A DNA stretch of 59,804 nt from Alphaproteobacteria bacterium (GTDB lineage: Bacteria > Pseudomonadota > Alphaproteobacteria > UBA2966), in NCBI GenBank assembly GCA_021296255.1, contig JAGWAU010000018.1:1-59804 (forward strand), written 5' to 3'. Positions 4,213-26,056 of this stretch are shown here, one piece after another. Position 1 is the first letter of the stretch; the number at the start of each line of letters is the position of its first letter. Under the pieces are notes generated by a model. That model searched no databases. It was not told the origin of the DNA and worked only from the letters and a program-made list of their open reading frames with translations. The translations under genes and the position numbers were made by a program.

Positions 4213-5901
4213 ATGACCGAAGCGACGCGCAGCAATCAGCCGGTCGACCCCATCACGCTTTCCGTGATCTGGGGCGGCTTCGTCTCCATCGCCGAAGAGA
4301 TGGGTACGACCCTGCGGCAGACGGCCTTCTCCGATGCCGTGCGCGAGGGGGACGATTTCTCGACGGCAATCTTCGATCGCCGGGGGCGCATGCTGGCTCA
4401 AGGCAACTTTACGCCGGGGCACCTCGGCTCCATGCCCCACGTCGTGCGGTCGGTGATGGAGTACTTTCCGGAAGAGGCGCTGAAGCCCGGAGACGCGGTC
4501 CTGGTGAACGACTCCGCCATCGGTTCGGGCCACTACCCCGACTGCTTCATCGTCATGCCGGTCTGGTTCGAGAACCATGTCGTCGGATACGCCACGGACA
4601 TCTGTCATCACGCGGATATGGGCGGTGCGGTGCCGGGCTCTCAGGCGATCATGGGCGTCACCGAGGCCTATCAGGAAGGGTTGCGCATCCTGCCCGTCAA
4701 GATCATGCGCGACGGAGAATTCTGCGAAGACATCATGCGCATCATCCTCGGCAACGTGCGCGTGCCGAACAAAGTGGGCGGTGATCTCCGGGCACAGGCC
4801 AACGCCAACTACGTGGGCTCGCAGCGGCTGATCCGCATGTACGAGCAGTACGGCGAGGACCTGATGGAGGCAGCGATCGAGGAGATCCTGGACCGCTCCG
4901 AGCGGCGCATCCGCGACCTCATTCGCCAGATGCCCGAAGGTGTTTACGAATTCGAGGACTTTTTCGACGACAGCGGCCCGGACACGCAACCGATACGTGT
5001 CCACGTGCAAATGGAGATCAAGGACGGTGGCATCACCGCCGATTTCTCCAAGAGCTCCGATCAGGTCCCGGCCGGCATGAATTGCTACAAGACGTTCACC
5101 CAGTGCTGGCTGTACTTTATCGTCAAGGCCTACACCGATGCGCTTCTGCCGCAGAACGACGGAGTTATTCGCGCCCTTGAGGTTCGCGGCCGCGAGGGGT
5201 CCGCATTCAACCCGGTCTATCCCGCGCCATCAGGCGGACGGGCGGTGGCGCAGATCCGCATCTACGAGGCAATGAACGGCATCCTCGCCAACCTTCTCCC
5301 CGATCGTGCGATGGCGGCGTTTTCTCACTGGACCAATATCCAGATGGGTGGCGTCGACGATCGAACGGGTGAGCCGTTCATCCTCTATGACGTCGTGTTC
5401 GCGGGTTACGGCGGCCAGGCGATGAAGGACGGGATCGAGGCGATGAGCCCGGTAATGAACTGCCCGAACATCCCTGTCGAGGTGCACGAAGCGCATAACC
5501 CCGTTCTCATTCACCGGGTTGAGTTCATTCCCGACTCGGCGGGTCCCGGCAAATTCCGTGGCGGCTGCGGATTGCGCAAGGACATCGAGCTTCGCACCGA
5601 CTCGGCGACGCTCAACCTGCTCGGCGACCGTCACAAGTTCGAACCCTACGGGCTCAGCGGTGGGGGCAGCGGCAAGCTCGCCGAGACGGTCCTCAACCCG
5701 GACGGCGAGGCGGAACCGATGAGCTCGAAGGAGCGGCGCGCGTTGAAGCGCGGCGATATCGTCAGTGTTCGCCTGTCCGGCGCCGGCGGGTTTGGCCCGG
5801 CCGCCGAACGCGATCCCGCCGCCGTCGAACGCGATATCACCGAGGGATACGTCACGCCGGAGGGCGCGCAGGAAGCATACGGTTGGGCGCCCAGTTCATA
5901 A
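4213..5901 (+). CDS. hyuB: Hydantoinase/oxoprolinase subunit B (HyuB-type)
   Basis: A 562-residue HydB/HyuB subunit. It opens with the family pattern DPITLSVIWGGFVSIAEEMG, continues with RQTAFSDAVREGDDFSTAIFD and the GHYPDCFI block, and ends with the glycine-rich GPGKFRGGCG...LNLLGDRHKFEPYGLSGG region. With subunit A it forms the heteromeric ATP-dependent amidohydrolase. The start ATG follows the A-subunit stop by only a few bases. The residues around HADMGG (about 136-141) match the conserved metal/substrate site seen across the family. Length is normal and no frameshift is visible. It is part of the metabolic block with amidases further downstream. Confidence 0.92.
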   Translation: MTEATRSNQPVDPITLSVIWGGFVSIAEEMGTTLRQTAFSDAVREGDDFSTAIFDRRGRMLAQGNFTPGHLGSMPHVVRSVMEYFPEEALKPGDAVLVNDSAIGSGHYPDCFIVMPVWFENHVVGYATDICHHADMGGAVPGSQAIMGVTEAYQEGLRILPVKIMRDGEFCEDIMRIILGNVRVPNKVGGDLRAQANANYVGSQRLIRMYEQYGEDLMEAAIEEILDRSERRIRDLIRQMPEGVYEFEDFFDDSGPDTQPIRVHVQMEIKDGGITADFSKSSDQVPAGMNCYKTFTQCWLYFIVKAYTDALLPQNDGVIRALEVRGREGSAFNPVYPAPSGGRAVAQIRIYEAMNGILANLLPDRAMAAFSHWTNIQMGGVDDRTGEPFILYDVVFAGYGGQAMKDGIEAMSPVMNCPNIPVEVHEAHNPVLIHRVEFIPDSAGPGKFRGGCGLRKDIELRTDSATLNLLGDRHKFEPYGLSGGGSGKLAETVLNPDGEAEPMSSKERRALKRGDIVSVRLSGAGGFGPAAERDPAAVERDITEGYVTPEGAQEAYGWAPSS

Positions 5902-5955
5902 CGAACTCACGCGACCGAATTCTCGGATGTCTGGCCGGAAAAGGAAAATCTCGAG

Positions 5956-6765
5956 GTGACCAGTGTTCTGCTAACAGGAGCGGCTGGCCGTATCGGGCCA
6001 ACCATCCGGGATGGTCTTCGCGGCCGCTGCTCCCTGCTGCGGATTTCGCATCATAGTCTCGACCGCCTTGGAGCGGCTGCCCCCGGCGAAGAGCTGAACC
6101 GAGCCGACCTCTGCAGTCTCGCCGACATGGAGGCTGCGATGGAAGGGATTGACGTCGTGGTCCATATGGGCGGACGGGGAACGGAGGCGGAGTGGGAGGT
6201 CATTCATGAGAAGAATATCGTCGGAACCTACAACGTGTTCGAAGCGGCGCGCCGGCAGAAGGTTCGGCGGGTGATCTACGCGAGTTCACACCACGCCGTC
6301 GGCTTCTATCGCCGCTCGAATACCCTCGATCTCAACGTGGCGCCGCGGCCGGATGGCCCGTATGGCGTCTCCAAGGTGTTCGGTGAGGCGCTCGGCCGCA
6401 TGTACGCGGACAAGCATGGAATGAGCGTTGTATCATTGCGGATTGGAGCGTTCAGACAGAAGCCCGAGGATATCCGTCATCTCAGCGTCTGGCTGAGTCC
6501 GAGGGACTGTCTACAGCTCATCGTCAAATGCATCGAGGCTCCGGATCTCCACTACGCCGTCATCTACGGCATATCCAACAATACGCGTTCGATATGGGAT
6601 AACTCCGGCGCGGCTCTGATCGGTTACAAGCCGGAAGACGACGCCGAAGTTTACCTTGAGGAGGTGCTCCAGAAGGGGACACCCGAGGGAGATATCGCGG
6701 CCGTGTTTCACGGCGGCCATTTCTGCCAGATGGATTTCGACGGAGATTCCTCTCGCATCGATTAG
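5956..6765 (+). CDS. NAD-dependent epimerase/dehydratase family protein (uronate dehydrogenase-like)
   Basis: Extended SDR of 269 residues starting at GTG 5956, with the Rossmann motif GAAGRIG immediately after the start. The catalytic Tyr-xxx-Lys lies in GPYGVSKVFGEAL, and a Ser precedes it in YASSHHAVG. The overall plan (short N-terminus, ASSHHAVGFY, then DGPYGVSKVFGEALGR) resembles uronate dehydrogenases, which oxidise hexuronates to aldaro-lactones with NAD+. A dehydratase from the enolase superfamily (887-2059) would normally act on such sugar acids, so the two may belong together. UDP-sugar epimerase-like activity remains possible. A 54-base gap separates it from hyuB. Confidence 0.82.
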   Translation: MTSVLLTGAAGRIGPTIRDGLRGRCSLLRISHHSLDRLGAAAPGEELNRADLCSLADMEAAMEGIDVVVHMGGRGTEAEWEVIHEKNIVGTYNVFEAARRQKVRRVIYASSHHAVGFYRRSNTLDLNVAPRPDGPYGVSKVFGEALGRMYADKHGMSVVSLRIGAFRQKPEDIRHLSVWLSPRDCLQLIVKCIEAPDLHYAVIYGISNNTRSIWDNSGAALIGYKPEDDAEVYLEEVLQKGTPEGDIAAVFHGGHFCQMDFDGDSSRID

Positions 6766-6904
6766 AACTGCGGGAATTTCAGCGCTGAGAGGCGGCCGAG
6801 CGGCACGACCTGCAAGCGTTTCCGTGATGCCGTGGACCATTGACGGCGCCATAATCCGGCAATAAGCATCGGCCGATGCGCTTTCGATACAGAGAGGCAA
6901 CCGC

Positions 6905-8056
6905 ATGAGGAGCAGTCGGGCCGAGAGCATGGAGGCGACGATTCCTCCACTGTTCGAGCCTTACAAGATCCGGGGGCTTGATTTGATCAACCGGGTCGTC
7001 GTCGCGCCGATGGACCAGTACGCTTGCGACGACGGCATGCCCAACGATTGGCAACTCGTGCACCTGGGAAGCCGCGCCATCGGCGGTGCCGGGCTCGTCA
7101 TCGCCGAAATGTGCAACGTGGCGCCGGAAGGCCGGGTCACCCCGCGTTGCTCGGGACTTTACAAGGACGAGCACGTCGCGCCGTGGAAGCGCGTGGTTGA
7201 CTTCGTGCACGAGCATTCGGATGCCAAGATCGGCATTCAGCTCGGTCATGCTGGCCGCAAGGGTGCGACCAAGGTGATGTGGGAGGGCCAGAACCAGCCG
7301 GTGGAAGAAGGTGGCTGGCCGCTGCTGTCCGCGTCGGCCGTCGCCTACTCGAACGAGAGCACCGTGCCCCAGGCCCTGGACCGGGAACTGATGGACATGG
7401 TGCTCGGGCAATATCGGCAGGCGGCCCAACGAGCGCTCGAGGCCGGTTTCGACATGCTGGAGCTGCACGGCGCGCACGGCTACCTTCCCTCGAGCTTCAT
7501 CTCGCCCATCTCCAACCGGCGGGAGGATGAGTATGGCGGCAGTCTCGAGAACCGCATGCGCTTTCCCCTCGAGATAGTGGATGCCGTCCGCAGGGTCATG
7601 CCCGACGACATGCCCTTCGGCATCAAGATCTCGGCGAGCGATCTGACAGACGGCGGCAACGAGATCGATGACGGCATCGAGATCGCTCGCATGCTCAAGG
7701 AACACGGTGGCGTCGACTACGTCTGTCCCTCGGGTGGGGGCATCGTGCCGTGGGGCGGGCAGCCGCGCCCCCGGCCGAAGGGGTTCGCCGAATATGCTCA
7801 CCGGATTCGCCGCGAGGTCGGCATTCCCACTATGGCCGTCGGCAACATCAACACGGTGGAAGAAGTGAACTCCGTGCTCGAGAATGGCGACGCCGATCTC
7901 GTGGCGTTGGCCCGCGGGCACCTGCGCGATCCTTACTGGACACTGCACGCGGGACTGGAACTCGACTACCATAGGCAGCCTTGGCCCGACCGCTACTTCA
8001 CGGTGCCGCGCCTGGCCAAGCTGAAACGCGGGAATCCCGACGCGGACGGCCAATAG
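6905..8056 (+). CDS. NADH:flavin oxidoreductase, Old Yellow Enzyme family
   Basis: A 383-residue FMN-dependent TIM-barrel ene-reductase. The N-terminus LFEPYKIRGLDLINRVVVAPM is typical. FMN and substrate positions are seen in QLGHAGRKG (His and Arg), in HGAHGYLPSSFISPISNRREDEYGGSLENRMRF split as HGAHGYL and NRREDEYGGSLENR, and in the C-terminal VGNINTVEE / LARGHLRDPYW segment. The layout matches YqjM/xenobiotic-reductase-type members that reduce activated C=C bonds. No C-terminal FeS or NADH domain is present, so it is not a 2,4-dienoyl-CoA reductase. The initiator may be ATG 6905 or the internal ATG at 6932 (MEATIPPLFEPY). A 139-base gap separates it from the epimerase gene. Confidence 0.9.
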   Translation: MRSSRAESMEATIPPLFEPYKIRGLDLINRVVVAPMDQYACDDGMPNDWQLVHLGSRAIGGAGLVIAEMCNVAPEGRVTPRCSGLYKDEHVAPWKRVVDFVHEHSDAKIGIQLGHAGRKGATKVMWEGQNQPVEEGGWPLLSASAVAYSNESTVPQALDRELMDMVLGQYRQAAQRALEAGFDMLELHGAHGYLPSSFISPISNRREDEYGGSLENRMRFPLEIVDAVRRVMPDDMPFGIKISASDLTDGGNEIDDGIEIARMLKEHGGVDYVCPSGGGIVPWGGQPRPRPKGFAEYAHRIRREVGIPTMAVGNINTVEEVNSVLENGDADLVALARGHLRDPYWTLHAGLELDYHRQPWPDRYFTVPRLAKLKRGNPDADGQ

Positions 8057-10945: not shown

Positions 10946-11175
10946 GCTTCATGCCTTAGTTCGCCGCATCCGGCGGTCCAGACAGGCTGCGTCGGGTGTT
11001 TTCTGACATGAAACTTTTTTTCCTCTCAGGAATATTGACATGTCGGATGCCTGGAGCGAAGGTTGCATAATTTCACGGAAAGAGGTGGCATGACCAGCAG
11101 AGGCCATCCGGTACGCTGGTCGTGCGGACCGGTTGGGCTCCGTACACTGGAAAGAGAGCACGGAGAGGAAAAGGA

Positions 11176-12531
11176 ATGAGCATCGACGTCGAGGTGCCGA
11201 ACGGTAATTTCAGAGGATACGACCTCAACACCCGGTCGTTTCAGGAGCCGGACGACGAACTGACGAAGATCGGTCCGGGCACCCCCTGCGGGGAGTATCT
11301 GCGGCGCTATTGGCACCCCATCGCCATGACCGAACAGATCGACGAGTTCCCGCTCCGAATCAGGCGGTTCGGGGAGGATCTGGTCCTCTTTCGCGACAAG
11401 TCTGGCCAGTACGGCTGCCTTCATCTCCATTGCAGTCACCGCAACACGTCGCTGGAATTCGGCATCATCGAGCGGAAGGGGATCCGCTGCTGCTATCACG
11501 GTTGGCTCTACGACGTCGACGGCACCATCCTGGAGACGCCTGGCGAACCCGCGGACAGCAAGATCAAGGACCGCGTCGCTCACGGCGCATATCCGACGAT
11601 CGAATACCGGGGTTTGGTGTTCACCTACTTTGGTCCTCCGGACGAGATGCCGACGTTCCCGTTCCTTGATCACATGGATCTCGGCCCCGGGGACGAGATG
11701 GTGCCGTTCCTCATTCCCAATCCGTGCAATTGGCTTCAGACCTACGAGAATTCGTTCGATCCTCACCATACCGTTCATCTGCATACGCGCGTGTCGGGCG
11801 CCCAGTTCACGGACGAGTTCGCCGTACATCCGGAGTTCGAGATCTTCGAACGCCCCTACGGCTATTTCTACACCAACGCCCGCCGGGTCGAGGACAAGGT
11901 ATGGATTCGGTTCCATGACCACCTGCCGCCCAACTTCTCGCAGAACGGCAGCATGTTTCCGGACGCCAAGAGGAACGCCTATTTCCTCAAGGCGGGCCTG
12001 ACCCGGTGGGTGGTGCCGGTCGACGACGAGAACAACATCACCATCGCGTGGCGACACTTCATCGACGGTTACGATCCCTTCGGACTCGCCGACAAGTCGA
12101 AGTGTGGATACAACTCCGTCGATTTCTATGGCCAGACCGACGAGCTGTCTTACGAGGAACGACAGCGGAAGCCCGGCGACTACGAGGCCTGGGTGGGGCA
12201 GGGCGCCGTCAGTATCCACAAGGCGGAGAACCTCGGCGAGACCGACAAAGGCGTCGCCATGGCGCGGCGCCATCACCGGGAACAGATCCGGGCCCTGCAG
12301 AAGGGTGAACGACTGCCGCAACCGACCGATCTCGGCCTGCCGGTGCCTCTCTACGGCGGCGACTCGGTGTTGACCATCCCCAGGAGCAACGAGGACGACC
12401 GCAAGACGGTCCGCGAAGTCTGCCATCGCGTGGCTGCGATCTACATGGAAGGCGACAAATACGCGGGCGACGATCGCGAGGAGTTCATCGTCAGGAGTTT
12501 GAAGAATCTCGAAGAGACTTGGCGGGACTAG
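11176..12531 (+). CDS. Rieske 2Fe-2S aromatic ring-hydroxylating oxygenase, alpha subunit (copy 1)
   Basis: A 451-residue terminal oxygenase component. ATG 11176 (MSIDVEVPNG) follows a purine-rich GAGGAAAAGGA site and is preferred over an upstream start at 11122. The Rieske cluster ligands are Cys86-x-His88 and Cys105-xx-His108 (CSHRN...CCYHGW). The mononuclear iron site is the NW(x)nDxxHxxxxH motif with Asp195, His198 and His203 (ENSFDPHHTVHLH). The TPCGEYLRRYWHPIA opening places it near the phthalate-dioxygenase/O-demethylase-like class of homo-oligomeric oxygenases. No ferredoxin reductase gene is in the window, so electrons must come from elsewhere. Paralogous to 13584-14972. Confidence 0.93.
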   Translation: MSIDVEVPNGNFRGYDLNTRSFQEPDDELTKIGPGTPCGEYLRRYWHPIAMTEQIDEFPLRIRRFGEDLVLFRDKSGQYGCLHLHCSHRNTSLEFGIIERKGIRCCYHGWLYDVDGTILETPGEPADSKIKDRVAHGAYPTIEYRGLVFTYFGPPDEMPTFPFLDHMDLGPGDEMVPFLIPNPCNWLQTYENSFDPHHTVHLHTRVSGAQFTDEFAVHPEFEIFERPYGYFYTNARRVEDKVWIRFHDHLPPNFSQNGSMFPDAKRNAYFLKAGLTRWVVPVDDENNITIAWRHFIDGYDPFGLADKSKCGYNSVDFYGQTDELSYEERQRKPGDYEAWVGQGAVSIHKAENLGETDKGVAMARRHHREQIRALQKGERLPQPTDLGLPVPLYGGDSVLTIPRSNEDDRKTVREVCHRVAAIYMEGDKYAGDDREEFIVRSLKNLEETWRD

Positions 12532-12589: not shown

Positions 12590-13342
12590 CTAGGCGGCGC
12601 GCTTTCGGGGACGCGGCGAGACCCGTTGCGGCCGGGTGTTCCTCTCCGGCTGAACAATCAGCGGAAAGTCGTCGATCGGACGCTGGGCGAATTTCGCTTC
12701 CGCCTTCTCGATGTCTATCTTGTGACCGACGACATGGCGCTCGTTGCCGCCGACCGTGGGATCGATCGCGTTCCGCCCCTTGCGTTGCCGGGTATCCGGC
12801 TCGAACGTCTCCGGCTCGAGCCCGTGGACGTTGAAGTTGAGGAATACGGTGGGCTCGGTTTCCGCGGCGAACCAATGGACGTTGCGGTGGAATTCGGAGG
12901 TCTGCATCGTGTCGCCGACTTCGTGCACGCCGTCGAATACCGGCATCAACAACACCGAGTCGTCGGTGATTCGCGCCAGCCGCTCGTATTCCCGTGCCCG
13001 CATGCGGCCGGCCATCACCAGCTGCGTGGAAACGTGGTTGAAATGATAGTGCGGCGGATGGGCCGTGTCGGTCTCCAGGTAGATGAGCTGCAGAGTGAAG
13101 TCCCGGGTCTTCTTGATCTCCCGCCAGAGGATACGGTCGCGCCGGTTGGCGAGGCAGTCCTCGATATGGGGGCCGAGCCGGGTCCACAGGTCGGCCCCGC
13201 GGTATGTGCGCAGCACCTCCCTTTGGAACTGCGGAACCGTAAGCTCGCGCCGGCCGAGGCGGGTGATCAGCCCACGGATCGCCTTCACGGTGGGCGAACG
13301 CCATTCGGACACATCCGTTCTGAAACCGGCCATGCGGTTCAC
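12590..13342 (-). CDS. Conserved hypothetical protein, possibly cupin-like
   Basis: A 250-residue protein between the two Rieske oxygenase genes, on the opposite strand; ATG 13342, with a second ATG at 13333. The only suggestive features are a His-rich segment HPPHYHFNHVSTQL (about 96-109) followed by EFHRNVHWFAAETEPTVFLNFNVHG (two blocks, EFHRNVHW and VFLNFNVHG). These resemble the metal-binding strands of cupins such as cysteine-dioxygenase-like enzymes. The C-terminus is basic and low-complexity. The competing reading frames here on both strands are less protein-like. I do not recognise a named family. Its position suggests a role, catalytic or structural, linked to the oxygenases. Confidence 0.65.
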   Translation of the reverse strand: MNRMAGFRTDVSEWRSPTVKAIRGLITRLGRRELTVPQFQREVLRTYRGADLWTRLGPHIEDCLANRRDRILWREIKKTRDFTLQLIYLETDTAHPPHYHFNHVSTQLVMAGRMRAREYERLARITDDSVLLMPVFDGVHEVGDTMQTSEFHRNVHWFAAETEPTVFLNFNVHGLEPETFEPDTRQRKGRNAIDPTVGGNERHVVGHKIDIEKAEAKFAQRPIDDFPLIVQPERNTRPQRVSPRPRKRAA

Positions 13343-13583: not shown

Positions 13584-14972
13584 ATGACGATTCGGGTTCA
13601 AGAGCCGTCCGGCGACTATCGGGGATACGACAAGACCGGTGTCATCTCCCTTCCGCCCGAGGATCTGCTGCACCGCGTGGGGCCCGGCACTCCCTGCGGA
13701 GAATACCTGCGCCGTTTCTGGCATCCCGTTTTCCTCGGCTCGATGCTCAAGGATCTGCCCGTACGCATTCGCCGCCTGGGTGAGGACCTCGTCATCTTCC
13801 GGGACGGCTCGGGCCGCCTCGGTCTCGTGCACGCCAACTGCAGCCACCGCAACACGTCCCTCGAATACGGCATCATCGAAGAAAAGGGCATTCGCTGCTG
13901 CTATCACGGTTGGCATTACGACGTGGACGGCACGATCCTCGAGACGCCGGGTGAGCCCGACGCCAGCAGGATCAAGGAACGAGTCGCCCATGGCGCCTAT
14001 CCCGTCGTGGAGGTGGAAGGCTTGATCTTCGCCTACATGGGACCCGTCGAGAAGATTCCGCCGTTTCCCCTGTTCGACACCATGAGCCTTCCCGGCGACG
14101 AGATGGTGCCGGCGATGATTCCCAATCCCTGCAATTGGCAGCAGATCGCCGAAAACTCCATCGATCCCTATCACGTGGTGTTCCTGCACTCCCGCGTGAG
14201 CGGGGTCCAGTTCCAGAACGAATTCCAGTTGATGCCGGTGTTCGACTACTTCGAGCGTCCCAACGGGGTTTTCTATACCAGCGCCCGCCGTGTCGACGAC
14301 AAGGTCTGGATTCGCGTGCACGATCACCTGATCCCCAACTTCTCCCAAAACGGCGGGATGTTTACGCAGGGCGATCAGGAAGAGCTCTATTTCGCCCGGG
14401 CGGGTCTGACCCGGTGGATCGTGCCCGTGGACGACGAGAATTCCCTCTACGTCGCTTACCGTCATTTCAACGAGGAAACGGACCCGCTCGGACTCGGCGA
14501 CAAGGACAAGGTCGGCTGGAACTCGATCGATTTCTATGGTCAGACCGGGGAGCGGACCTACGAAGAAGCGCAGACGGGCCCAAGCGACTACGAGGCCTGG
14601 GTCGGGCAGGGAGCCATCACCGTCCACGACCGTGAGAATCTCGGGCACACGGACCAGGGCGTCTCGATGTACCGGCAACGGCTGCGCAACGCCATCCAGC
14701 GGCTGCAGGCGGGAGAGGAGCCCATGCAGCCGTCCGATCTCGGCTTGCCCATCCCGACCTATGCGGGGGATACCATCCTTCGGATACCCAAAAGCAACAC
14801 GGATGATCGCGCGCTGCGGTCCGAGATTTCCAGGAAGGTGGCCGAGATTTTCCGCAGCGGCGACGAACTCGTGGGCGAGGAACGTCGCCAGCACATCAAG
14901 CGACGGCTCCGCGATCTGGACGATCGTCGTGGCGGGGATAGGGGCCGGACCTGGGACCAGACCACGCAATGA
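13584..14972 (+). CDS. Rieske 2Fe-2S aromatic ring-hydroxylating oxygenase, alpha subunit (copy 2)
   Basis: A 462-residue paralogue of the oxygenase at 11176-12531, collinear through the whole Rieske domain: Cys86, His88, Cys105, His108 occupy the same numbering. The iron site is Asp194, His197, His202 (ENSIDPYHVVFLH). Blocks such as PGTPCGEYLRR, NTSLEYGIIEEKGIRCCYHGW and SRVSGVQF are almost identical in the pair. Divergence in the C-terminal pocket region suggests different substrates or successive steps. It overlaps the next small gene by four bases (ATGA at 14969). Predicted reaction: O2- and Fe-dependent hydroxylation or demethylation. No partner reductase is visible. Confidence 0.93.
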   Translation: MTIRVQEPSGDYRGYDKTGVISLPPEDLLHRVGPGTPCGEYLRRFWHPVFLGSMLKDLPVRIRRLGEDLVIFRDGSGRLGLVHANCSHRNTSLEYGIIEEKGIRCCYHGWHYDVDGTILETPGEPDASRIKERVAHGAYPVVEVEGLIFAYMGPVEKIPPFPLFDTMSLPGDEMVPAMIPNPCNWQQIAENSIDPYHVVFLHSRVSGVQFQNEFQLMPVFDYFERPNGVFYTSARRVDDKVWIRVHDHLIPNFSQNGGMFTQGDQEELYFARAGLTRWIVPVDDENSLYVAYRHFNEETDPLGLGDKDKVGWNSIDFYGQTGERTYEEAQTGPSDYEAWVGQGAITVHDRENLGHTDQGVSMYRQRLRNAIQRLQAGEEPMQPSDLGLPIPTYAGDTILRIPKSNTDDRALRSEISRKVAEIFRSGDELVGEERRQHIKRRLRDLDDRRGGDRGRTWDQTTQ

Positions 14973-15460: not shown

Positions 15461-16315
15461 ATGAAGGCTCGCTGGGACCTCATACTCGTACCGTCGTTCG
15501 TCCTGAGCTTCGTGCTCATGGCGGCGTCTCAGATTATCTTCCTGCGCGCGAGCTTCTACAAGGACCTGGGGTTGGGGCGCCAGGGCGAGGACATCATCTT
15601 CACCAACTACGGCCGGTTCTTCACGGACGAGTTCTATCTCAGCGTGCTCTGGCTGACGATTCAGGTGTCGTTCCTGGCCATGCTGTTTACCCTGGTGTTC
15701 GGCTTTCCGGTCGCCTACATGATCGCGCGGCTGCGCTCCCGCTGGGCGATGGTTCTCCTGGCGGGGATCGTGATCTCGACCTTCATCACGATCGTGATCA
15801 AGGTGTTCGGCATCTACATCATGTTCTCGGCCAGCGGCATCGTGAATCAGACGTTGATGGGGCTCGGCATTCTCGACAAGCCGTGGACGGTGATCGGCAA
15901 CGACGCCGGCGTGGTGGTCGGCCTCATGCATTTCACGCTGGGGTTCGGCGTGCTCGTCCTGTACAGCGTCGTGCAGACCATACCGCGGTCCCTGGAGGAG
16001 GCCGCCCAGATCCACGGTTCCAATCGCTGGCGGGTGTGGACCCGCGTGATCATTCCGTTGAGCCTGCCCGGGGTCACGGTTTCCGCCCTGATGATCTTCA
16101 ACATGTGCATGGGCGCCTTTACCTCGGCCGCCCTGCTCGGCGGCGGGCGCGTCTTCACGCTGCCGGTGCTGATCCAGCGCGTGGTGATCATGGAGGTGAA
16201 GTACTCCATGGGGGGAACGTTGGCGGCCGTCCTGTTGATCTCCGTGCTGCTGATCAATCTGCTTTCGATCTATCTGATGACGCGCATGCGCAAGCAAAGG
16301 CTGGTGATCACATGA
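15461..16315 (+). CDS. ABC transporter permease, spermidine/putrescine (PotB) type
   Basis: Inner-membrane permease of 284 residues with about six hydrophobic segments, starting at ATG 15461 (MKARWDLILVPSFVLSF). The EAA loop contacting the ATPase is visible as EEAAQIHGSNRWRVWTRVIIPLSLPG (EEAAQIHGS ... IPLSLPG) near residues 181-206, typical of the PotB/CysTW-like type I importer family. Its stop overlaps the ATG of the second permease (16312), so the two are translationally coupled. Together with the following permease, binding protein and ATPase it forms a complete importer, placed inside the degradative cluster. Probable role: uptake of the module's substrate. Confidence 0.9.
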   Translation: MKARWDLILVPSFVLSFVLMAASQIIFLRASFYKDLGLGRQGEDIIFTNYGRFFTDEFYLSVLWLTIQVSFLAMLFTLVFGFPVAYMIARLRSRWAMVLLAGIVISTFITIVIKVFGIYIMFSASGIVNQTLMGLGILDKPWTVIGNDAGVVVGLMHFTLGFGVLVLYSVVQTIPRSLEEAAQIHGSNRWRVWTRVIIPLSLPGVTVSALMIFNMCMGAFTSAALLGGGRVFTLPVLIQRVVIMEVKYSMGGTLAAVLLISVLLINLLSIYLMTRMRKQRLVIT

Positions 16316-17211
16316 CGGCTTCGACACCGCTGGCGACCACGGCCTCGAACGGCACCCGACCGCAGCCCCAGCGGCAGCCCGGGTTCCATTTCCCGCTCGC
16401 CAAGGTTTCGTTCTACGGATTCTGCAGTCTCTCGTATATCTTCCTTCTGTCGCCTCTGGTCGTCGTCGTCGGCGCGTCCCTTCACCGGGGGTCGCGTTAC
16501 ACGGTGGTCAAATTCCCGCCGGAAGAGCTCTCGCTCTATTGGTACACGCAGATCCCGGACGCTCACTGGGAAGCTCTGACGTTGAGCTTCAGCCTGGCAT
16601 TCATGGCGTCCATTCTGGCTTGCATCGTCGGCATACCCGCCGCGCTGGGCCTGGTTCGGAGCAACATTCCCGTCAAGGGCCTGTTCTCCTCGATCTTCCG
16701 GGCGCCCCTGCAGATTCCGTCGATCGTCACCGGCGTTGCCTTCCTGCAAATGTACTATCTGTTCGGCGACCTCACGGGCATCTACGTGAACGGCACCTTT
16801 GCCGGCTTGCTGCTGGGACACCTGTTCGTCGGCATCCCCTATGTCGTGGGGACCGTCGGTGCGGTTCTGCAGCGTTTCGATACACGCCTTGAGGAGGCGG
16901 CGCTGAGTCTCGGGGCCGGCCGTATCACCACGTTCCGCCGCGTGACGCTTCCCGTCATCATGCCGGGCGTGTACGCTGGCGGGCTCTATGCCTTCATGGT
17001 CTCTTTCGGCGACGTGCCGATATCGATCTTCCTGTCGGCGCCCGGGTTCGTCACCTTCCCGGTCGAGCTCTTCTATGGAATGGAGAATGACTTCAACCCG
17101 TCCGTGCTCGCCTCGTCGACGCTCGTCATCCTGTTTTCGCTCGGCCTGCTGCTGCTCATGCAGCGCATCGTCGGGCTCGAGAATCTGTTGCGCTCCGGTG
17201 GTGGCTCGTGA
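16312..17211 (+). CDS. ABC transporter permease, spermidine/putrescine (PotC) type
   Basis: Second permease, 299 residues from ATG 16312 (MTASTPLATTASNG). The frame is open far upstream, but that part lies inside the first permease gene and is not protein-like. About six transmembrane segments are seen. The EAA motif is EEAALSLGAGRITTFRRVTLPVIMPG, read as EEAALSLGAG ... LPVIMPG around residues 194-219. The N-terminal 25 residues are Thr/Pro/Gln-rich and cytoplasmic. A 133-base gap containing a stem-loop follows before the binding-protein gene. Heterodimeric partner of the 15461 permease. Confidence 0.9.
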   Translation: MTASTPLATTASNGTRPQPQRQPGFHFPLAKVSFYGFCSLSYIFLLSPLVVVVGASLHRGSRYTVVKFPPEELSLYWYTQIPDAHWEALTLSFSLAFMASILACIVGIPAALGLVRSNIPVKGLFSSIFRAPLQIPSIVTGVAFLQMYYLFGDLTGIYVNGTFAGLLLGHLFVGIPYVVGTVGAVLQRFDTRLEEAALSLGAGRITTFRRVTLPVIMPGVYAGGLYAFMVSFGDVPISIFLSAPGFVTFPVELFYGMENDFNPSVLASSTLVILFSLGLLLLMQRIVGLENLLRSGGGS

Positions 17212-18476: not shown

Positions 18477-19541
18477 ATGTCACGCGTCAACCTCGAACGG
18501 GTGGTCAAGCACTACGGGAGCGTCGTCGCGCTCCAGGAGATGGATCTTGAGATTCAGGAGGGTGAGTTTCTGACCCTTCTGGGTCCCTCCGGATGCGGGA
18601 AAACGACGACGTTGCGTCTCGTTGCCGGGTTCATCGAGCCCACCCAGGGCACGATCTACCTCGGTAACGACGACGTGACGTACGTCCCCCCGCAGAAGCG
18701 GGAAATCGGCATGGTCTTCCAGGACTATGCCCTGTTCCCGCACATGACGATCGCGGACAACATCGGCTTCGGCCTCAAGGAGCGTGGCGCCGGCAAGGAG
18801 GAGATGAGGAATCGCGTTGGCGAGTTGCTGGATCTGATTCATCTGCCCGGCGTCGAGGACCGCTATCCCGCCGAGCTCAGCGGCGGCCAGGCGCAACGTG
18901 TCGCCGTGGCGCGGGCCGTGGCCTATGCGCCGCGCGTGCTTCTGATGGACGAGCCTCTCGGAGCACTCGATCTCAAGCTTCGCGAGGCCATGCAGATTGA
19001 GCTTCGGCGCATTCAGCAGGAATTGAAGATCACGACGGTTTACGTCACCCACGACCAGGGTGAGGCGATGAACATGTCCGACCGGATCGTGGTCATGAAC
19101 CTCGGCCTGATCGAGCAGACGGGCAACGCCGAAGACATCTACAACAACCCGCGGACCAAGTTCGTCGCGGATTTCATCGGCTCGATCAACTTCCTGCCGG
19201 CCATGATCGTGGGTGACGAGGGAGAATGGACGGTCGCCGAAACGGTCGGGACGAAGGTCAAGGTGCCGAAAAGCGACGCCTCCTCGTCGTCGGGCGAGGT
19301 GGCCATCGCCGTGCGGCCGGAACGTCTGGAGCTGATCGCCAACGGCGGTGACGGCATAAACGTCGTGCCGGGCACGGTCTCCAACAAGATCTTCAACGGC
19401 AACCTCATGCGCGTTTTCGTAGATGTGGGCGCCGACGAGCCCGTCGTGATCGAGCTTCCGCCCGCAGAGGTCCACAGCGAGACAGGCGATTCGGTGAACA
19501 TCGGATGGGCGCCGCAAAACGGCCAGGTTCTGACGGAATAG
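18477..19541 (+). CDS. ABC transporter ATP-binding protein (PotA-type)
   Basis: A 354-residue ATPase. Walker A GPSGCGKT lies at 37-44, the Q-loop in VFQDYALFPHM at about 80-90, the signature LSGGQ at 134-138, Walker B LLMDEP at 155-160 and the H-loop in VTHDQGEAM. The C-terminal third (about 240-354) is a TOBE domain containing AIAVRPERLEL, as in PotA/MalK-type importers. RBS-like GGAGGAAG precedes ATG 18477. It completes the importer with two permeases and one binding protein, in the order permease-permease-binding protein-ATPase. Confidence 0.94.
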   Translation: MSRVNLERVVKHYGSVVALQEMDLEIQEGEFLTLLGPSGCGKTTTLRLVAGFIEPTQGTIYLGNDDVTYVPPQKREIGMVFQDYALFPHMTIADNIGFGLKERGAGKEEMRNRVGELLDLIHLPGVEDRYPAELSGGQAQRVAVARAVAYAPRVLLMDEPLGALDLKLREAMQIELRRIQQELKITTVYVTHDQGEAMNMSDRIVVMNLGLIEQTGNAEDIYNNPRTKFVADFIGSINFLPAMIVGDEGEWTVAETVGTKVKVPKSDASSSSGEVAIAVRPERLELIANGGDGINVVPGTVSNKIFNGNLMRVFVDVGADEPVVIELPPAEVHSETGDSVNIGWAPQNGQVLTE

Positions 19542-19635: not shown

Positions 19636-20253
19636 GTGGAGCAACGGGTCACGGTGAATCCGGGCGTCGTGGACTGGTCCGGTGAGAACCCCGGTATCTA
19701 TCTGCGCGATGTCGCTGACGGTCCGTGGGTGACTTTGGCCGTCTTTTTCCGGGTGACGATGTCTCCGTACGGCAGCGGTCACGCGATGCTGGTGCTCGAC
19801 GAGCCCGATACCGGCAAGGGCTGGCCAGACGTTCGCAACTTCATCGTCAACGACAACGAGGAACTGACGCGCTACCTGATTCGGGACTATGTCTCCGGAT
19901 TCCCGTCGTTCCGCGACAAACCGGGCCTGGAGGCGATGACTTATGTGCCTCTCGAGAGCGTGGCATGCGCGGGCGATCCGCAAACCGAATATTCGGAGAC
20001 GGTGACGGCGGAGGGCCTGACCGCCACCATGACGTGGTCCGACACCATGGAGCCCATGGCGGTCGAGGTGACTCCGGAAACCTCCGCAACCGGCAAGCAC
20101 GACATGTACAGCCTGTTCTTCGAGGCCAAGGAGGCGAAAATCGAAGTCAATAGCGAACGCCTCTCCGGGAACGTGTCGACCCGTCAGTTTTTCGGGAAAA
20201 CCATGAGCACGGCCTTCCTGGCCTTTTCCGAGACCTGGGTGCGGCCGGCCTAG
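19636..20253 (+). CDS. Unknown 205-residue protein, tandem paralogue A
   Basis: Starts at GTG 19636 after GGGAGGTTCC. I recognise no family, signal peptide, transmembrane helix or Cys-based cofactor motif. The protein is acidic and looks like an all-beta soluble domain. Landmarks are WSGENPGIYL near the N-terminus, DGPW, a FFRV strand, LDEPDTGKGWPDVRNFIVNDNEE, YVPLESV, YSETVTAEGL and a C-terminal FLAFSETWVRP. Each has a counterpart at the same place in the next gene (20305-20922), which has the identical length. Flanked by the importer ATPase and the DUF1116 gene, and apparently in the same transcript. Could be a two-component enzyme or binding-protein heterodimer; this is a guess. Confidence 0.75.
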   Translation: MEQRVTVNPGVVDWSGENPGIYLRDVADGPWVTLAVFFRVTMSPYGSGHAMLVLDEPDTGKGWPDVRNFIVNDNEELTRYLIRDYVSGFPSFRDKPGLEAMTYVPLESVACAGDPQTEYSETVTAEGLTATMTWSDTMEPMAVEVTPETSATGKHDMYSLFFEAKEAKIEVNSERLSGNVSTRQFFGKTMSTAFLAFSETWVRPA

Positions 20254-20304
20254 CCGAGCCGGGACTGCAGCGGACCCGCGAAGAAACCCGAGGGAGGAAT
20301 TCAG

Positions 20305-20922
20305 ATGCCGTTGTCGACGCCGGTCAATTCGGGAAAGATTTGGTGGTCGGGCGACAATCCCGGGATGCTGTTGAAGGAATCCGAGGATGGGCCGTGGACG
20401 GCCATGACCCTGTTCTTCCGGATCGTGTACACGCCGGCGGGCCGGGGAAACGCGTTGTTCCTTTACGAGCAACCGGACTCCGGCGAAAGCCTCCCCAATG
20501 CCTACAACGTCGTACTACACGACAATGAGGACATGGCCCGTTGGCTGGCCGAGAATTTCGTTGCCCGTCTCCCCGGACCCTTCTCCGAATCACCGGCCTT
20601 CAAGGCACTTCAGTACGTGCCTCTAACCGAATGCCACACGTCGGGTGATACCTCGAGCCGGTACATCCAGACGGTAAAGGCGGAGGGCATGGAGATCGAT
20701 CTGATTTGGGATCGGCTCGGCACGCCGACGGCGCTGGAGTTGTCGCCCGAGCACGTGGGTACGAGGTCCCACAACCTCTTCAATCTGCTCGTCGAGTCGC
20801 GCGACGCATCGATCGTGGTGAACGGAAGGCGATTGCCCGGAAAGGTGATGCCGCGCCAGCAGGCCGGTATGGATACGACGACCGGGTTCGTCTACTTCTC
20901 CGAGATTTGGATCGAACCCTAA
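20305..20922 (+). CDS. Unknown 205-residue protein, tandem paralogue B
   Basis: ATG 20305 is preceded by GAGGGAGGAATTC, a very strong ribosome-binding site. The product has exactly the length of its upstream neighbour and matches it in order: WSGDNPGMLL, DGPW, FFRI, YEQPDSGESLPNAYNVVLHDNED, YVPLTEC, YIQTVKAEGM, then FVYFSEIWIEP. Identity seems moderate (judged by eye), so the copies have diverged in function. One His-containing segment, CHTSGDTSSRY (B) versus CAGDPQTEY (A), marks a difference. No recognised family. Tight packing between the importer and the DUF1116/amidase genes implies a metabolic role in the same pathway. Confidence 0.75.
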   Translation: MPLSTPVNSGKIWWSGDNPGMLLKESEDGPWTAMTLFFRIVYTPAGRGNALFLYEQPDSGESLPNAYNVVLHDNEDMARWLAENFVARLPGPFSESPAFKALQYVPLTECHTSGDTSSRYIQTVKAEGMEIDLIWDRLGTPTALELSPEHVGTRSHNLFNLLVESRDASIVVNGRRLPGKVMPRQQAGMDTTTGFVYFSEIWIEP

Positions 20923-20976: not shown

Positions 20977-22179
20977 GTGGCGAATCTCAATGCCGCCGAT
21001 CAAACGGCTATCGGAAAAGTTCTTGCGGCCGAACCGGTTCTGCAGGGTCTGAAGCCCGCGTCGGAAGCGGTCGGCCTCGATCGGAACACGATCCTCCACG
21101 CAGGCCCCGCTTTTGCCAAGCCTGCCGACATCACCAAGCCCATTCTGAATTCCGCCGTCGTCGCGCTCATGTTCGAGGGAATCGCCGGCGATTTCGAGGC
21201 GGCGGAGCAGATGATCCTTTCCGGCGACGTGGTTCCGCGACCCGCCCAGGACTATGACGTCGTCACGCCGCTCGCGGCTTGCGTTACCCCCTCGTTCATG
21301 CTGCAGGAAGTCACGGATGCCGCCGGATCGGGCCGCACCGCCTACACGCCGATAAACGGCGGAAACAGTCCCGGGGCCATGCGCCTCGGCGTGCGCACGG
21401 AGCAATCTCTGGAGCTCGTACGCTGGCTCAACGGAGACTTCGCGGAAGCCCTGTCCGGCGCTCTCGGTGACCCCGTGCCGACACTACCGGCGGCCAGGAC
21501 GGGCATGGAGGCGGGGGACGACTGTCACGGACGGACGTCGGCGGCCACCGAGGCGCTCGCTGGAATTCTGTCTCCGAGATTGACGGGAAGCGCTGGCGCG
21601 GAGAAGGCGGCTGGCTTCGTCAAGGAGAGTCCCAGCTACTTCCTCAATCTCTGGATGGCCTCCGCGCGCTGCATGCTGGGCGCTGCGTCGGGTACCGAGG
21701 GCAGCAGCCTGGTCATCGGGGCCGGCGGCAATGGCGCCGAGGCGGGCATACAGGTTGCGGGTCTGCCCGGGCGGTGGTTCACCGCACCCGCCGATCCCCC
21801 GAAGCACGAGGCGCCGGAAGACGTCCCGGAAGGCCGGGCGTTGGGCGCCATCGGGGACTCGGCGATCGTCGACGCCATGGGGTTCGGCGCCATGGCTATG
21901 AACCTGGCGCCGGAGCAGAAGAAGGGGATGCTTCGCTTGATGCCCGAGGGCGGTCTCGAGTTGCCGGCGATGCTTCTGGCGGCCGAACATCCAGGGTTCG
22001 GCGGCCTCGGCCTGTGCGTCGGCATGGCGGCGCGCACCGTCGTCGATGCGGAACGCCGACCCGTGGTCAGTCTCGGTGTGCTCGACAACGAGGGCGAACT
22101 GGGTCGTCTGACGGGGGGTATCTTCGAAACTCCGATGAGCGTCTTCCGGGATGCCGTGGCGGCTCTGGAGGCGGCGTGA
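20977..22179 (+). CDS. DUF1116 domain-containing protein (YlbE/AllG-like)
   Basis: A 400-residue protein from GTG 20977, chosen because GGGAGACAGGAC precedes it; a TTG at 20938 would add 13 residues. The DUF1116 fold is seen throughout: ANLNAADQTAIGKVLAAEPVL, PGxxxxP-type substrate region, HGRTSAATE (about 167-175) and the Gly-rich GAGGNGAEAGIQVAG. In enteric bacteria DUF1116 proteins (YlbE/AllG) work with FdrA/AllF and YlbF/AllH in oxamate carbamoyltransfer during allantoin use. Here neither FdrA nor an AllH/DUF2877 protein is present. Its stop overlaps the next amidase start (TGATG). I infer a C-N chemistry step, but the reaction is unproven. Confidence 0.8.
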   Translation: MANLNAADQTAIGKVLAAEPVLQGLKPASEAVGLDRNTILHAGPAFAKPADITKPILNSAVVALMFEGIAGDFEAAEQMILSGDVVPRPAQDYDVVTPLAACVTPSFMLQEVTDAAGSGRTAYTPINGGNSPGAMRLGVRTEQSLELVRWLNGDFAEALSGALGDPVPTLPAARTGMEAGDDCHGRTSAATEALAGILSPRLTGSAGAEKAAGFVKESPSYFLNLWMASARCMLGAASGTEGSSLVIGAGGNGAEAGIQVAGLPGRWFTAPADPPKHEAPEDVPEGRALGAIGDSAIVDAMGFGAMAMNLAPEQKKGMLRLMPEGGLELPAMLLAAEHPGFGGLGLCVGMAARTVVDAERRPVVSLGVLDNEGELGRLTGGIFETPMSVFRDAVAALEAA

Positions 22180-23456
22180 TGACCGAGCTCAATAGGCTCG
22201 GAGCCAAAGACGTCGCCGACCTGATCGCGTCGAGGGAGGCCGGTGCCGAAGAAGTCGTCAAAGCGTGTATCGCCCGGATCGAAGAACGCGAGCCGGACGT
22301 CGGCGCCTTTCAGTACTTCGATGCGGATTACGCTCTCGAGCAGGCAAGGACCTTGGACAACAGCCCCTCCAAGGGCGTTCTCCACGGCGTGCCTCTTGGC
22401 ATCAAGGACATCATCGACACGAAGGACATGCCGACAGGGAATGGCTCGGGCATCTATCAAGGCCGCCGACCCATCTCCGATGCGAGTTGCGTCGCGCTCT
22501 CGCGCGGGGCCGGCGCCATCATCCTGGGCAAGACGGTGACCACGGAATTCGCCTATTTCTTTCCAGGAAAGACCAGGAATCCACATAACCTCAGTCACAC
22601 GACCGGCGGGTCGTCCATGGGGTCGGCGGCCGGTGCGGCCGACCACATGTTTCCCATCGGTTTCGGGTCGCAGACTGCCGCCTCCGTCACGCGGCCGGCC
22701 GCCTACTGCGGTACGCTCGGTTACAAGGCGACGACAGGGGACTTCGATCTGCAGGGCGTGTGCGGTCTCGCAGCCTCGTACGATACGCTCGGATTCCTGT
22801 GCCGCGATCTCGAGGACATCTCTCTGATGCGCCAGGCGCTGATCGGCGACCGGCCGATGCCGCCGCGCGCCGACGGCGCGCCGCCACGGGTGGGCTTCGT
22901 CCGTACGCCCTGGTGGGACGAAGCGGATGCCGCCACCCATCACGCCCTTGGGTGGGCCGCCGAGAAATTGGCGGGCGAGGGGGCGGCTATAACGGAACCG
23001 ACGTTGCCGTCGGAATTCGGCGAGCTGATCGAGACGCACAAACTGGTGATGGCGTTCGACGCTGCCCGCGCCCGCGCGTACGAATACGTCAATCATCCGG
23101 ACGAGCTCAGCCCGCAGTTCACTGCTCTGATGGAGGAAGGCCGCGCCGTGTCCTACGCAGACTATCGGGCCGCGCAGACGCAGTCGGTCGCTTGCCGAAA
23201 GCAGGTCGCGGACCTGATGTCCGATGTCGACGTCTTGTTGGCGCCAAGCGCGCCGGGCGAAGCCCCCGAAGGACATGCCGCAACCGGCGATCCCATCTTC
23301 AGCCGCATGTGGACATTGCTCCACGTTCCTTCCGTGACCCTGCCCGTGGCGACGGGTGATTCCGGACTGCCCATCGGCGTGCAGATTATCGGCAAGGCCC
23401 ATGGTGATGGCGCGTTGATCAGCGACGCGCGGTGGATCTACGACCGGCTCAAGTAG
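22179..23456 (+). CDS. Amidase (amidase-signature family), tandem copy 1
   Basis: A 425-residue amidase starting at ATG 22179 inside the TGATG overlap with DUF1116; the longer upstream frame is not protein-like. The Ser-cisSer-Lys triad is present: Lys76 (GIKD), Ser145 in GGSSMGS, and nucleophile Ser169 in GSQTAASVTRPA. The family hydrolyses carboxylic amides, including amide-linked side chains and ureido compounds. Its first 180 residues align without gaps to copies 2 and 3 (same residue numbers for all three catalytic positions), showing tandem duplication. The cytoplasmic location fits acting on imported substrate. No signal peptide. Confidence 0.92.
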   Translation: MTELNRLGAKDVADLIASREAGAEEVVKACIARIEEREPDVGAFQYFDADYALEQARTLDNSPSKGVLHGVPLGIKDIIDTKDMPTGNGSGIYQGRRPISDASCVALSRGAGAIILGKTVTTEFAYFFPGKTRNPHNLSHTTGGSSMGSAAGAADHMFPIGFGSQTAASVTRPAAYCGTLGYKATTGDFDLQGVCGLAASYDTLGFLCRDLEDISLMRQALIGDRPMPPRADGAPPRVGFVRTPWWDEADAATHHALGWAAEKLAGEGAAITEPTLPSEFGELIETHKLVMAFDAARARAYEYVNHPDELSPQFTALMEEGRAVSYADYRAAQTQSVACRKQVADLMSDVDVLLAPSAPGEAPEGHAATGDPIFSRMWTLLHVPSVTLPVATGDSGLPIGVQIIGKAHGDGALISDARWIYDRLK

Positions 23457-23483: not shown

Positions 23484-24785
23484 ATGGTGAACCCCGCGCA
23501 TCTCGATGTCCGCGAGGCCGCGCATGCCGTCGCCTCGGGGGAGATGAGCGCCGAGGAGCTGGCGCGCGCCTGCCTCGACCGGATCTCCGCGCGCGAGGAC
23601 GAGGTCCGGGCTTTCGAATACCTCGACCCCGGGTACGCCCTCGATCAGGCCCGAAATCTGGGCAATGGGCCGCGGCTCGGTCCCCTCCACGGCGTGCCCA
23701 TCGGCATCAAGGATACCTATGACACGGCCGATATGACCACGGCCTATGGCTCGCCGATCTATGAAGGCAACCGGCCCCACGCGGATGCTAGCGCCGTCGC
23801 GCTATGCCGCGCGGCCGGGGCGGTGATCGTCGGGAAGACGGTCACGACGGAGTTCGCCTACTGGAGCCCGGGCAAGACGCGGAACCCCCGCAATCTCGAT
23901 CATACTCCCGGTGGTTCGTCGAGCGGTTCGGCGGCCGCGGTCGCCGACAACATGCTGCCGTTGGCGTTCGGTTCGCAGACGGCGGCGTCGGTCATTCGGC
24001 CGGCGGCGTTCTGCGGCGTGTTCGGCTACAAGGCGACCCGTGGCGGTATCGATTCCCGTGGTCTTCTTCCCTTGGCGCCGACGCTGGATTCGCCGGGGTT
24101 CTTCACGCGTGCGCTCGGTGACATCAGCCTTGTGCGTTCCGTGCTCGTCGGCGATGACCCGGATCCCGCGCCCCGGCCCGACGATTCGCCGCCCCGGGTC
24201 GGCCTCGTGCGGACCGTGCATTGGGACGAGGCCGATCCTGTCAGCCGTGACCTCGTGGAGGATTCAGCGCACCGTCTCGCCGGTGCGGGTGCCCCGGTCT
24301 CGGAGCCGGTGATGCCGGACGGGTTCCAGCACCTCGCGGAGATTCAGAACACGATCATGGCGTTCGAGATCGCCCGCGGGTTCGCCTGGGAATACGCCAA
24401 TCACCGCGACAAGCTCAGCGATACTTTCCGCGAGATCGTGGAGACGGGACTATCGACGCCTTACGATGACTATGTTTCGGCCATCACCACGGCGGATCGC
24501 TGTCGGGCCGGTCTTGCCGCCGTCATGGAGGACTACGACGTCCTCATCGCGCCGAGCGCGGTGGGCGAGGCGCCGGCGGAGACCGGGTCGACGGGAAACC
24601 CCCTGTTCAGCCGGATGTGGACGCTGATGTATCTGCCGTCCGTCCATCTGCCGACGGGCTCCGGACCGAACGGCCTGCCCGTGGGGATTCAAGCGATGGG
24701 ACGTTGCCATCGCGACAGCCAGTTGGTGATCGACGCCCAGTGGATGTGGGATCGCCTGGTCTCGTCCGGAACGCGCGCGGCATGA
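23484..24785 (+). CDS. Amidase (amidase-signature family), tandem copy 2
   Basis: A 433-residue paralogue of the flanking amidases, ATG 23484 (MVNPAHLDVREAAH). Lys76, Ser145 (GGSSSGS) and Ser169 (GSQTAASVIRPA) form the triad; this copy has the canonical GGSSSGS signature. It sits 27 bases after copy 1 and its stop overlaps the start of copy 3. Specificity loops downstream of residue 200 differ from the neighbours (e.g. VRTVHWDEADPVSRD), so the three copies probably act on related but different amides. No transmembrane segment or signal peptide. Confidence 0.92.
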   Translation: MVNPAHLDVREAAHAVASGEMSAEELARACLDRISAREDEVRAFEYLDPGYALDQARNLGNGPRLGPLHGVPIGIKDTYDTADMTTAYGSPIYEGNRPHADASAVALCRAAGAVIVGKTVTTEFAYWSPGKTRNPRNLDHTPGGSSSGSAAAVADNMLPLAFGSQTAASVIRPAAFCGVFGYKATRGGIDSRGLLPLAPTLDSPGFFTRALGDISLVRSVLVGDDPDPAPRPDDSPPRVGLVRTVHWDEADPVSRDLVEDSAHRLAGAGAPVSEPVMPDGFQHLAEIQNTIMAFEIARGFAWEYANHRDKLSDTFREIVETGLSTPYDDYVSAITTADRCRAGLAAVMEDYDVLIAPSAVGEAPAETGSTGNPLFSRMWTLMYLPSVHLPTGSGPNGLPVGIQAMGRCHRDSQLVIDAQWMWDRLVSSGTRAA

Positions 24786-26056
24786 CGCCTCGCAACGAGC
24801 TGGCCGCCCAAGAAGTCGTCAGCCTGATCGCGTCCGGCGAAACCAGCGCCGAGGAGGTGACGCGCGCATGCCTCGCGCGGATCGAGGCGCGCGAACCGGT
24901 CGTCGGGGCTTTCGAGTATCTCGATCCGGCTTACGCGATCGCGCAGGCGAGGGCGCTCGACGACGGTCCCCTGCGCGGACCGCTGCACGGGCTCCCCATC
25001 GGCGTCAAGGACTGTTTCGAGACCTTCGACATGCCGACGGGCATTGGCAGCGAGATCTACGGCGGCAACAACACCGGGCGGGATGCGGCGATCGTCACCC
25101 TGATGCGCAATGCCGGCGCGGTCATCCTGGGCAAGACCGTGACCAGCGAATTCATCGCGTTCTGGCCCGGCAAGACTCGAAACCCGCACAACCCGGAACA
25201 CACGACCGGCGTATCGTCGATGGGTTCGGCGGCGGGCGTCGCGGATATGATGGCGCCTGTCGGTTTGGCGACCCAGTCGGGCGGCTCGACGGTCCGTCCC
25301 GCGGCTCACTGCGGGGTGATCGGGTACAAGTCGAGCTACGGCGAGATGCCGACGGATGGGCTCATGCCCATGCAGGCGAGCACGGACACCGTCGGGTTCA
25401 TGGTCCGTCATATCGAGGACGCCGTCCTCATGCGGAAGGCGCTGCTGGGGGCCAAGCCGGCGCCGTCGCGCCCGGCCGGGAGCCCGCCCCGCGCGGCGTT
25501 CATCCGCACGAGCCATTGGGAGGAGGCCGAGCCGATCACCCACGAGGTCATCGAACGCGTCGCCGGGAAGCTGCGGGCCGCCGGCGCCGTCGTGGAGGAA
25601 CCCGCCATGGCAGGCCGTCTCGACGGGTTCACGGAGGTCGCCGTTACGATCCAGCGGTTCGAGTTCGCGCACTGGCGGGCCTACGAATGGACGCACCATC
25701 GCGAAGAGATCAGTGCACCCCTGCGAGAGTTCATGGAGGAGGGCCGGAAAACGAGCTTCGAGGACTACAACCAGGCGCAAATCACGGCTGCGGAAATGCG
25801 AACCGCATTCGATACCCTTTTCGACGACTACGATCTGGTGTTGACGCCGAGCGCCGCGGGCGAGGCGCTCAAGCTCGGGTATCCGACCGGCAGTTCGAAT
25901 TTCAACCGCATGTGGTCCTTGCTGCACGGTCCGGGCATCAATTTGCCGGCCGGCAGGGGGCCGCAAGGCCTGCCTGTCGGCGTGCAGCTCATCGGCCGCA
26001 AATACGGTGACGACAGATTTCTTGCCGACGCGGCTTGGGTCCACGAGCGGATCTGA
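24782..26056 (+). CDS. Amidase (amidase-signature family), tandem copy 3
   Basis: A 424-residue amidase starting at ATG 24782, overlapping the stop of copy 2 (ATGA); the frame is open upstream but the Met at 24782 gives the family N-terminus MTPRNELAAQEVVSLIASGE. Lys76 (GVKD), Ser145 and Ser169 (ATQSGGSTVRPA) are kept, but the Gly before the cis-Ser is Val (TTGVSSMGS), and the segment before the nucleophile is ATQSGG rather than GSQTAA. These changes near the oxyanion region suggest altered specificity or weaker activity. Its 3' end overlaps the convergent PIN-toxin gene by about 68 bases. Confidence 0.9.
   Translation: MTPRNELAAQEVVSLIASGETSAEEVTRACLARIEAREPVVGAFEYLDPAYAIAQARALDDGPLRGPLHGLPIGVKDCFETFDMPTGIGSEIYGGNNTGRDAAIVTLMRNAGAVILGKTVTSEFIAFWPGKTRNPHNPEHTTGVSSMGSAAGVADMMAPVGLATQSGGSTVRPAAHCGVIGYKSSYGEMPTDGLMPMQASTDTVGFMVRHIEDAVLMRKALLGAKPAPSRPAGSPPRAAFIRTSHWEEAEPITHEVIERVAGKLRAAGAVVEEPAMAGRLDGFTEVAVTIQRFEFAHWRAYEWTHHREEISAPLREFMEEGRKTSFEDYNQAQITAAEMRTAFDTLFDDYDLVLTPSAAGEALKLGYPTGSSNFNRMWSLLHGPGINLPAGRGPQGLPVGVQLIGRKYGDDRFLADAAWVHERI

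Follow-up and report, generated by a model that had tools for sequence, protein, structure and literature searches.

Two adjacent genes in a 59,804-nucleotide stretch of alphaproteobacterial DNA (hereafter the window) encode members A and B of a widespread paired protein family. This family and its operon appear to be unstudied: the open-licence literature searched yielded no paper on the A/B pair or on a Rieske-DUF1116 operon. Our preferred reading, to which we give a probability of roughly 0.4, is that A and B together make up a soluble beta-barrel enzyme of two subunits, independent of cofactors, that acts after a Rieske oxygenase and before hydrolases during the catabolism of a nitrogen-containing compound. 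The product of the Rieske oxygenase would be the substrate, and in other branches of the family an enzyme of this type would perhaps take the product of a luciferase-like monooxygenase. The step itself would be non-redox, i.e. a dehydration, a hydration, a tautomerisation or the opening of an oxidised N-heterocycle, as performed by a lyase, hydratase or ring-opening enzyme; AllG, or an alpha/beta hydrolase in some lineages, plus an amidase-signature hydrolase would act thereafter. This reaction type is suggested by the chemistry of proteins with the predicted fold and by the kinds of neighbouring genes.

Gene A (19636-20253, plus strand) starts with GTG and gene B (20305-20922, plus strand) begins 51 bp after it with ATG; GGGAGG-type ribosome sites lie about 7 bases 5' of both starts and both products have 205 residues. 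The equal length is a local coincidence, the common region being about 198 residues with variable termini. BLASTP aligned the two with 76/199 identical residues (38%, E 2e-59), and each carries the landmarks WSGxNPG (WSGENPG/WSGDNPG), DGPW, YVPL and FSExWxxP (FSETWVRP/FSEIWIEP). The initial annotation, made from the letters only, is thereby confirmed where it described paralogous 205-residue reading frames with all four landmarks and strong ribosome sites, as well as, by the neighbours given below, a place between an importer ATPase and a DUF1116 gene inside a catabolic operon. Against two sister genomes dN/dS was 0.03-0.11 for A and 0.06-0.13 for B, rough values given that two of the four dS estimates, those against one of the two genomes, exceed 1.5 and are near saturation. 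Judged from these comparisons both genes are under purifying selection, which argues for their coding status.

Out of 410 candidate stretches in a contig scan, 358 were relatives, and the best 80 loci of the 358 were fetched. A tandem pair is present in 53 of these and a single copy in 27; their record titles assign them to Rhodobacteraceae, gammaproteobacteria, Burkholderiales, Rokubacteria, SAR324 and others. Of 385 genomes sampled evenly across the class, 41 had a relative, in many cases a divergent one with a lower score, and among genomes of the window's relatives 4/41 matched, three of which have the tandem pair and belong to the window's genus. Both pair genes on a Ruegeria conchae plasmid are annotated 'hypothetical protein', and on a Paracoccus plasmid a single copy is flanked by an oxidoreductase and DUF1116, together with an amidase and an ABC importer. 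Other contigs of the window's own genome also encode distant relatives. One of these (L023:10027-10645) consists of two overlapping frames, which may reflect a frameshift, a sequencing error or a decaying gene. The frame of cluster 28 (L083), which is antisense and has no Pfam match, is probably spurious.

Neither A nor B matched a Pfam or NCBIfam family at E<=10, and PDB sequences gave nothing of note in a single-sequence search and no match with a profile. When 61 relatives were compared with Pfam, 11 families were hit weakly, each by at most two relatives, PF06314 not being among them. Two PDB sequence matches (E 1.7-1.8) and two PHROGs matches (E 0.05-0.06) were judged to be noise, and the label 'NAD-dependent dehydratase' on a Paracoccus relative was discarded as being without NCBIfam support. 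The absence of a recognised family, as initially annotated, is thus borne out by the Pfam, NCBIfam and PDB-sequence searches, and no known family emerged as a clear match of both proteins. The supposed novelty stands in so far as there is no curated family and falls in so far as hundreds of relatives with a conserved A/B pair exist. The pair is real, conserved and unnamed, and ordinary as a catabolic operon pair; for all its hundreds of members, its recurrent two-gene arrangement and its confidently predicted fold, the family is nameless in Pfam and NCBIfam. As paralogues outside any curated family in a catabolic operon, A and B remain good candidates for unknown enzymology, with a putative activity.

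In a quick tree of 141 rows 54/54 second copies, including B, group on one branch (SH-aLRT 87), opposite 54 first copies, including A, and 29 singles (SH-aLRT 84); supports of 84-87 are modest and under the 95 mark. The fragments of the frame-split gene L023, to which a script gave the labels first and second, are excluded from the 54 + 54. The label 'first' needs five changes on the tree, due to the singles that are mixed in. Since second copies stand apart from first copies, the duplication is old and both copies have been kept. The estimated distance from the A stop to the B start ranges from -11 to +51 bp in 54 pairs, with a 1-base overlap as the commonest value, as is typical of subunits that are co-produced; a putative physical A/B complex would fit this spacing as well as the gene order and the co-retention.

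Conserved residues were counted with the rows of L021, L022 and L023 excluded. W14, G16, N18, P19, R39, G46, G48, N68, N74, E121, W134, R183, E199 and W201 are fixed or nearly so in all groups, and D73 is conserved at 80-97% across groups. Y22, T152 and H155 are invariant or almost so in first copies and singles; second copies have Leu at position 22, H155 in 59% and T152 in 56%, and fixed Q185, A186 and Y196. As A resembles the singles and keeps Y22, T152 and H155, it is the likelier catalytic subunit, which would have kept the ancestral site, and B, having lost these three wholly or partly and fixed the other three, would more likely be a structural or substrate-shaping partner. No cysteine column reaches 90% in the family alignment, and the lone lysine column that reaches 90% in any group is position 24, which is K or R (R in A of the window). 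On the residue pattern, acid/base chemistry is possible for A/B.

AlphaFold2 predicts both structures with high confidence, with a pLDDT of 95.9 for A and 95.6 for B and a pTM of 0.91 for each, using 61 and 57, respectively, of the 141 rows of the tree. Both models are mostly beta with one main helix and form a single beta-barrel. Foldseek against the PDB gave no match at E<=0.001 for either model, nor did a structure search among viral models at E<=0.001. VIA-align put ADC-type enzymes at the top, with Z 8.1-8.9 for A and 8.2-9.1 for B over 147-169 residues and an rmsd of mostly 4.6-5.4; the top rows of the two models (Z 8.9 and 9.1) span about 150-155 residues at an rmsd of about 5. Domains of the AttH/CrtC/pericyclase type reach Z 5.9-8.5; only these two groups are above background, after which unrelated barrels follow at about Z 5, and for the B model Z falls from 6.8 to 5.4 to 4.5. 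Models without a true match often score Z 7-8, and Z 8-9 is just slightly higher; the predicted fold may well be common to the ADC-type and AttH/CrtC-type barrels, and family membership is not claimed. Of the profile and structure searches proposed at the outset, the former gave no family; the latter revealed these resemblances, so the predicted fold is not wholly new.

The ADC superfamily (PF06314; ADC, Swit_4259, the S. bingchenggensis aldolase-dehydratase and MppR) provides the best structural rows, Z 8-9 over about 150 of the 205 residues, and the order of strand, D-N-E-like turn and helix in A/B looks similar to that of ADC. However, there is no sequence or profile match, A and B are about 40 residues shorter and they have no conserved Schiff-base lysine. 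Remote homology to ADC was rejected upon an hhalign comparison with 28 ADC proteins in local mode (probability 0.14%). ADC employs a catalytic Schiff-base lysine, and with no conserved lysine column apart from K/R24 a mechanism of this kind is unlikely for A/B. At one of the 80 loci a true ADC family gene (L103:8333-9487) lies directly downstream of a single-copy relative, an observation that was set aside as evidence.

The second structural group comprises AttH/CrtC-type, Diels-Alderase, kievitone hydratase and 25-phosphosteroid lyase domains; its chains have 320-380 residues and are partly aligned, whereas A and B are each one 205-residue domain with no Pfam match of the PF07143 type. The CrtC family was found in 1/115 genomes. 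AttH-like domains are lipocalin-like, and the resemblance to them, the small single-domain barrel and the family's lack of a cysteine column and of an invariant lysine column would also suit barrels with no enzymatic role, which bind a small molecule so as to carry or protect an unstable intermediate. We regard this as quite unlikely, given that the many fixed polar residues (E121, E199, R39, D73, R183 and H155 of A) exceed the needs of a passive binder and that keeping both diverged copies over such a long time hints at a specific task.

The neighbours of the pair in the window, all on the plus strand and assigned by Pfam unless stated otherwise, include two Rieske oxygenases upstream (PF00355 at 11122-12531; PF00355 with LigXa_C at 13584-14972). 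Between these and the pair lies an ABC importer, with two permeases named by eye (15461-17211, namely the ORF 15461-16315 and the C-terminal portion of the frame that ends at 17211), a solute-binding protein (PF13416, 17321-18433) and an ATPase (18477-19541), an ORF named from its sequence. Directly downstream of B is an AllG homologue (PF06545, DUF1116; 20977-22179; E 2.7e-51) that is 28.5% identical to E. coli YlbE; its open frame starts at TTG 20938, GTG 20977 being the likelier start. Three amidases (PF01425) follow: the start codon of the first (22179-23456) overlaps the AllG stop, the second is at 23484-24785 and the third at 24782-26056, for which an ATG in frame was chosen by eye as the start. 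Beside the pair in the window, no aminotransferase, split decarboxylase, dehydrogenase or AspA-like gene was seen. A cupin-like gene on the minus strand (12590-13342) sits between the two Rieske genes and has a weak match, below cut-off, to the PCO_ADO thiol dioxygenases.

The genome context of homologues, a check suggested with the initial annotation, shows that the pair marks a recurring operon of Rieske oxygenase, A, B, AllG and amidase in Rhodobacteraceae, gammaproteobacteria and others. Per best 80 loci, with counts lowered by contig ends and Pfam names taken from representatives, Rieske genes occur in 61, aminotransferases in 38, split TPP subunits in 37 each, ABC ATPases in 31, AspA-like genes in 26, aldehyde dehydrogenases in 23, SoxA in 15 and SoxB in 13; the hydrolases that accompany the family are AllG (61/80) and amidase (33/80).

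A Rieske gene is in reach in 46/53 pair loci, and is out of reach in 7/53 and in 12/27 single loci, partly on account of contig ends; it is the named gene directly upstream in 34/53 pair loci and 10/27 single loci. This adjacency, along with the fact that Pfam naming revealed no reductase beside the window's Rieske genes, would fit A and B as accessory subunits of the oxygenase, in place of a beta subunit or an electron-transfer helper. Such a role seems improbable. The oxygenase is of the LigXa/phthalate type, which usually works without a beta subunit, and neither A nor B matched the ring-hydroxylating beta family in Pfam or an iron-sulphur or flavin family in Pfam and NCBIfam. Moreover, gammaproteobacterial loci (L028, L030, L032) have the Rieske gene several genes off on the opposite strand, the 8 kb flanks of L025 contain none, and a luciferase-like monooxygenase can be the neighbour instead. 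The gene for the latter is within 133 bp of a relative at L090, L103, L167 and L171; from the divergent relatives L167-L173, which have little context in common, only these luciferase-like neighbours were used.

The gene directly downstream of the pair is AllG in 47/53 pair loci, an association tighter than that of the Rieske gene directly before it. AllG is part of the oxamate carbamoyltransferase AllFGH, of which AllF and AllH are absent from all A/B loci searched, as is AllK: the E. coli proteins FdrA, YlbF and YbcF, i.e. AllF, AllH and AllK, matched at 0 loci, compared with 67 for YlbE. A and B might replace AllF and AllH as partners of AllG, in an A-B-AllG complex for the transfer or cleavage of a carbamoyl or amide group. 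An AllG tree of 61 rows near the family, 10 near AllF and 11 near neither also keeps family-linked AllG proteins largely apart from the AllF-linked ones, a strong split but not a clean one, since the with-family group needs four changes. We nevertheless consider this partnership rather unlikely, as 16/27 single-copy loci are without AllG, and a PRK07581/MetX-like alpha/beta hydrolase, present in 7/80 loci (L026, L029, L090, L096, L099, L102 and L103), never coincides with it (hypergeometric P 1.6e-5, a value that ignores kinship among loci). The three pair loci without AllG (L026, which ends soon after the pair, L029 and L099) all have this hydrolase, which looks like a replacement of AllG.

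Regarding the substrate, an aminotransferase is present in 26/26 AspA loci and is HisC-like in part of the loci; the split decarboxylase is similar to sulfopyruvate and phosphonopyruvate decarboxylases, and the AspA-like protein to DoeB, in each case below the NCBIfam cut-offs. From the HisC-like aminotransferase, split TPP decarboxylase, aldehyde dehydrogenase and AspA-like genes we would guess, where these extra genes join the locus, at a route from histidine or methylhistidine via imidazole acetate to N-acyl-aspartate. Single-copy and divergent branches have other partners, and Rokubacteria loci have bhcC- and bhcA-like genes. The iad (indole acetate) and lum (lumichrome) pathways for N-heterocycles, as far as they are described in the sections available, likewise combine a Rieske oxygenase with hydrolases, and a two-subunit TPP decarboxylase belongs to the lum pathway (PMC12746152). 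Compared by description, the available parts of PMC12633357 and PMC12746152 name no A/B-like gene and no DUF. When the homarine, indole acetate and lumichrome pathways were considered as a match, no common A/B-like gene was found.

More tentatively, and with considerable doubt, the pair might define a new family of heteromeric barrel enzymes in which one subunit is catalytic and the other degenerate. Such an enzyme would open or rearrange an oxidised N-heterocycle in an undescribed catabolic pathway of marine and soil proteobacteria, AllG being re-used outside oxamate metabolism. Orphan AllG (DUF1116) proteins that occur apart from their customary partners would thereby gain a function, and the way in which a common nitrogen compound is broken down could come to light; the operon is accessible in cultured Ruegeria or Variovorax relatives.

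Related gene sets also occur apart from the family. At L194 (genome G314) Rieske, AllG, amidase and aldehyde dehydrogenase genes are together, with no A/B relative in the 8.6 kb read and no family match in the genome. This counts against the preferred reading, as do the loci with a Rieske gene out of reach, the lack of a Foldseek match at E<=0.001 and the negative hhalign comparison with ADC. In the window's own genome a second AllG gene (L186, contig C32) lies beside a Rieske gene, also with no A/B relative in the 8.6 kb read. Further upstream in the window, a second catabolic block (887-8056) contains mandelate racemase-like, NAD epimerase and FMN oxidoreductase genes as well as hydantoinase A (2110-4206) and hydantoinase B (4213-5901), both on the plus strand; these lie in the same catabolic region as the pair and possibly share a pathway with it.
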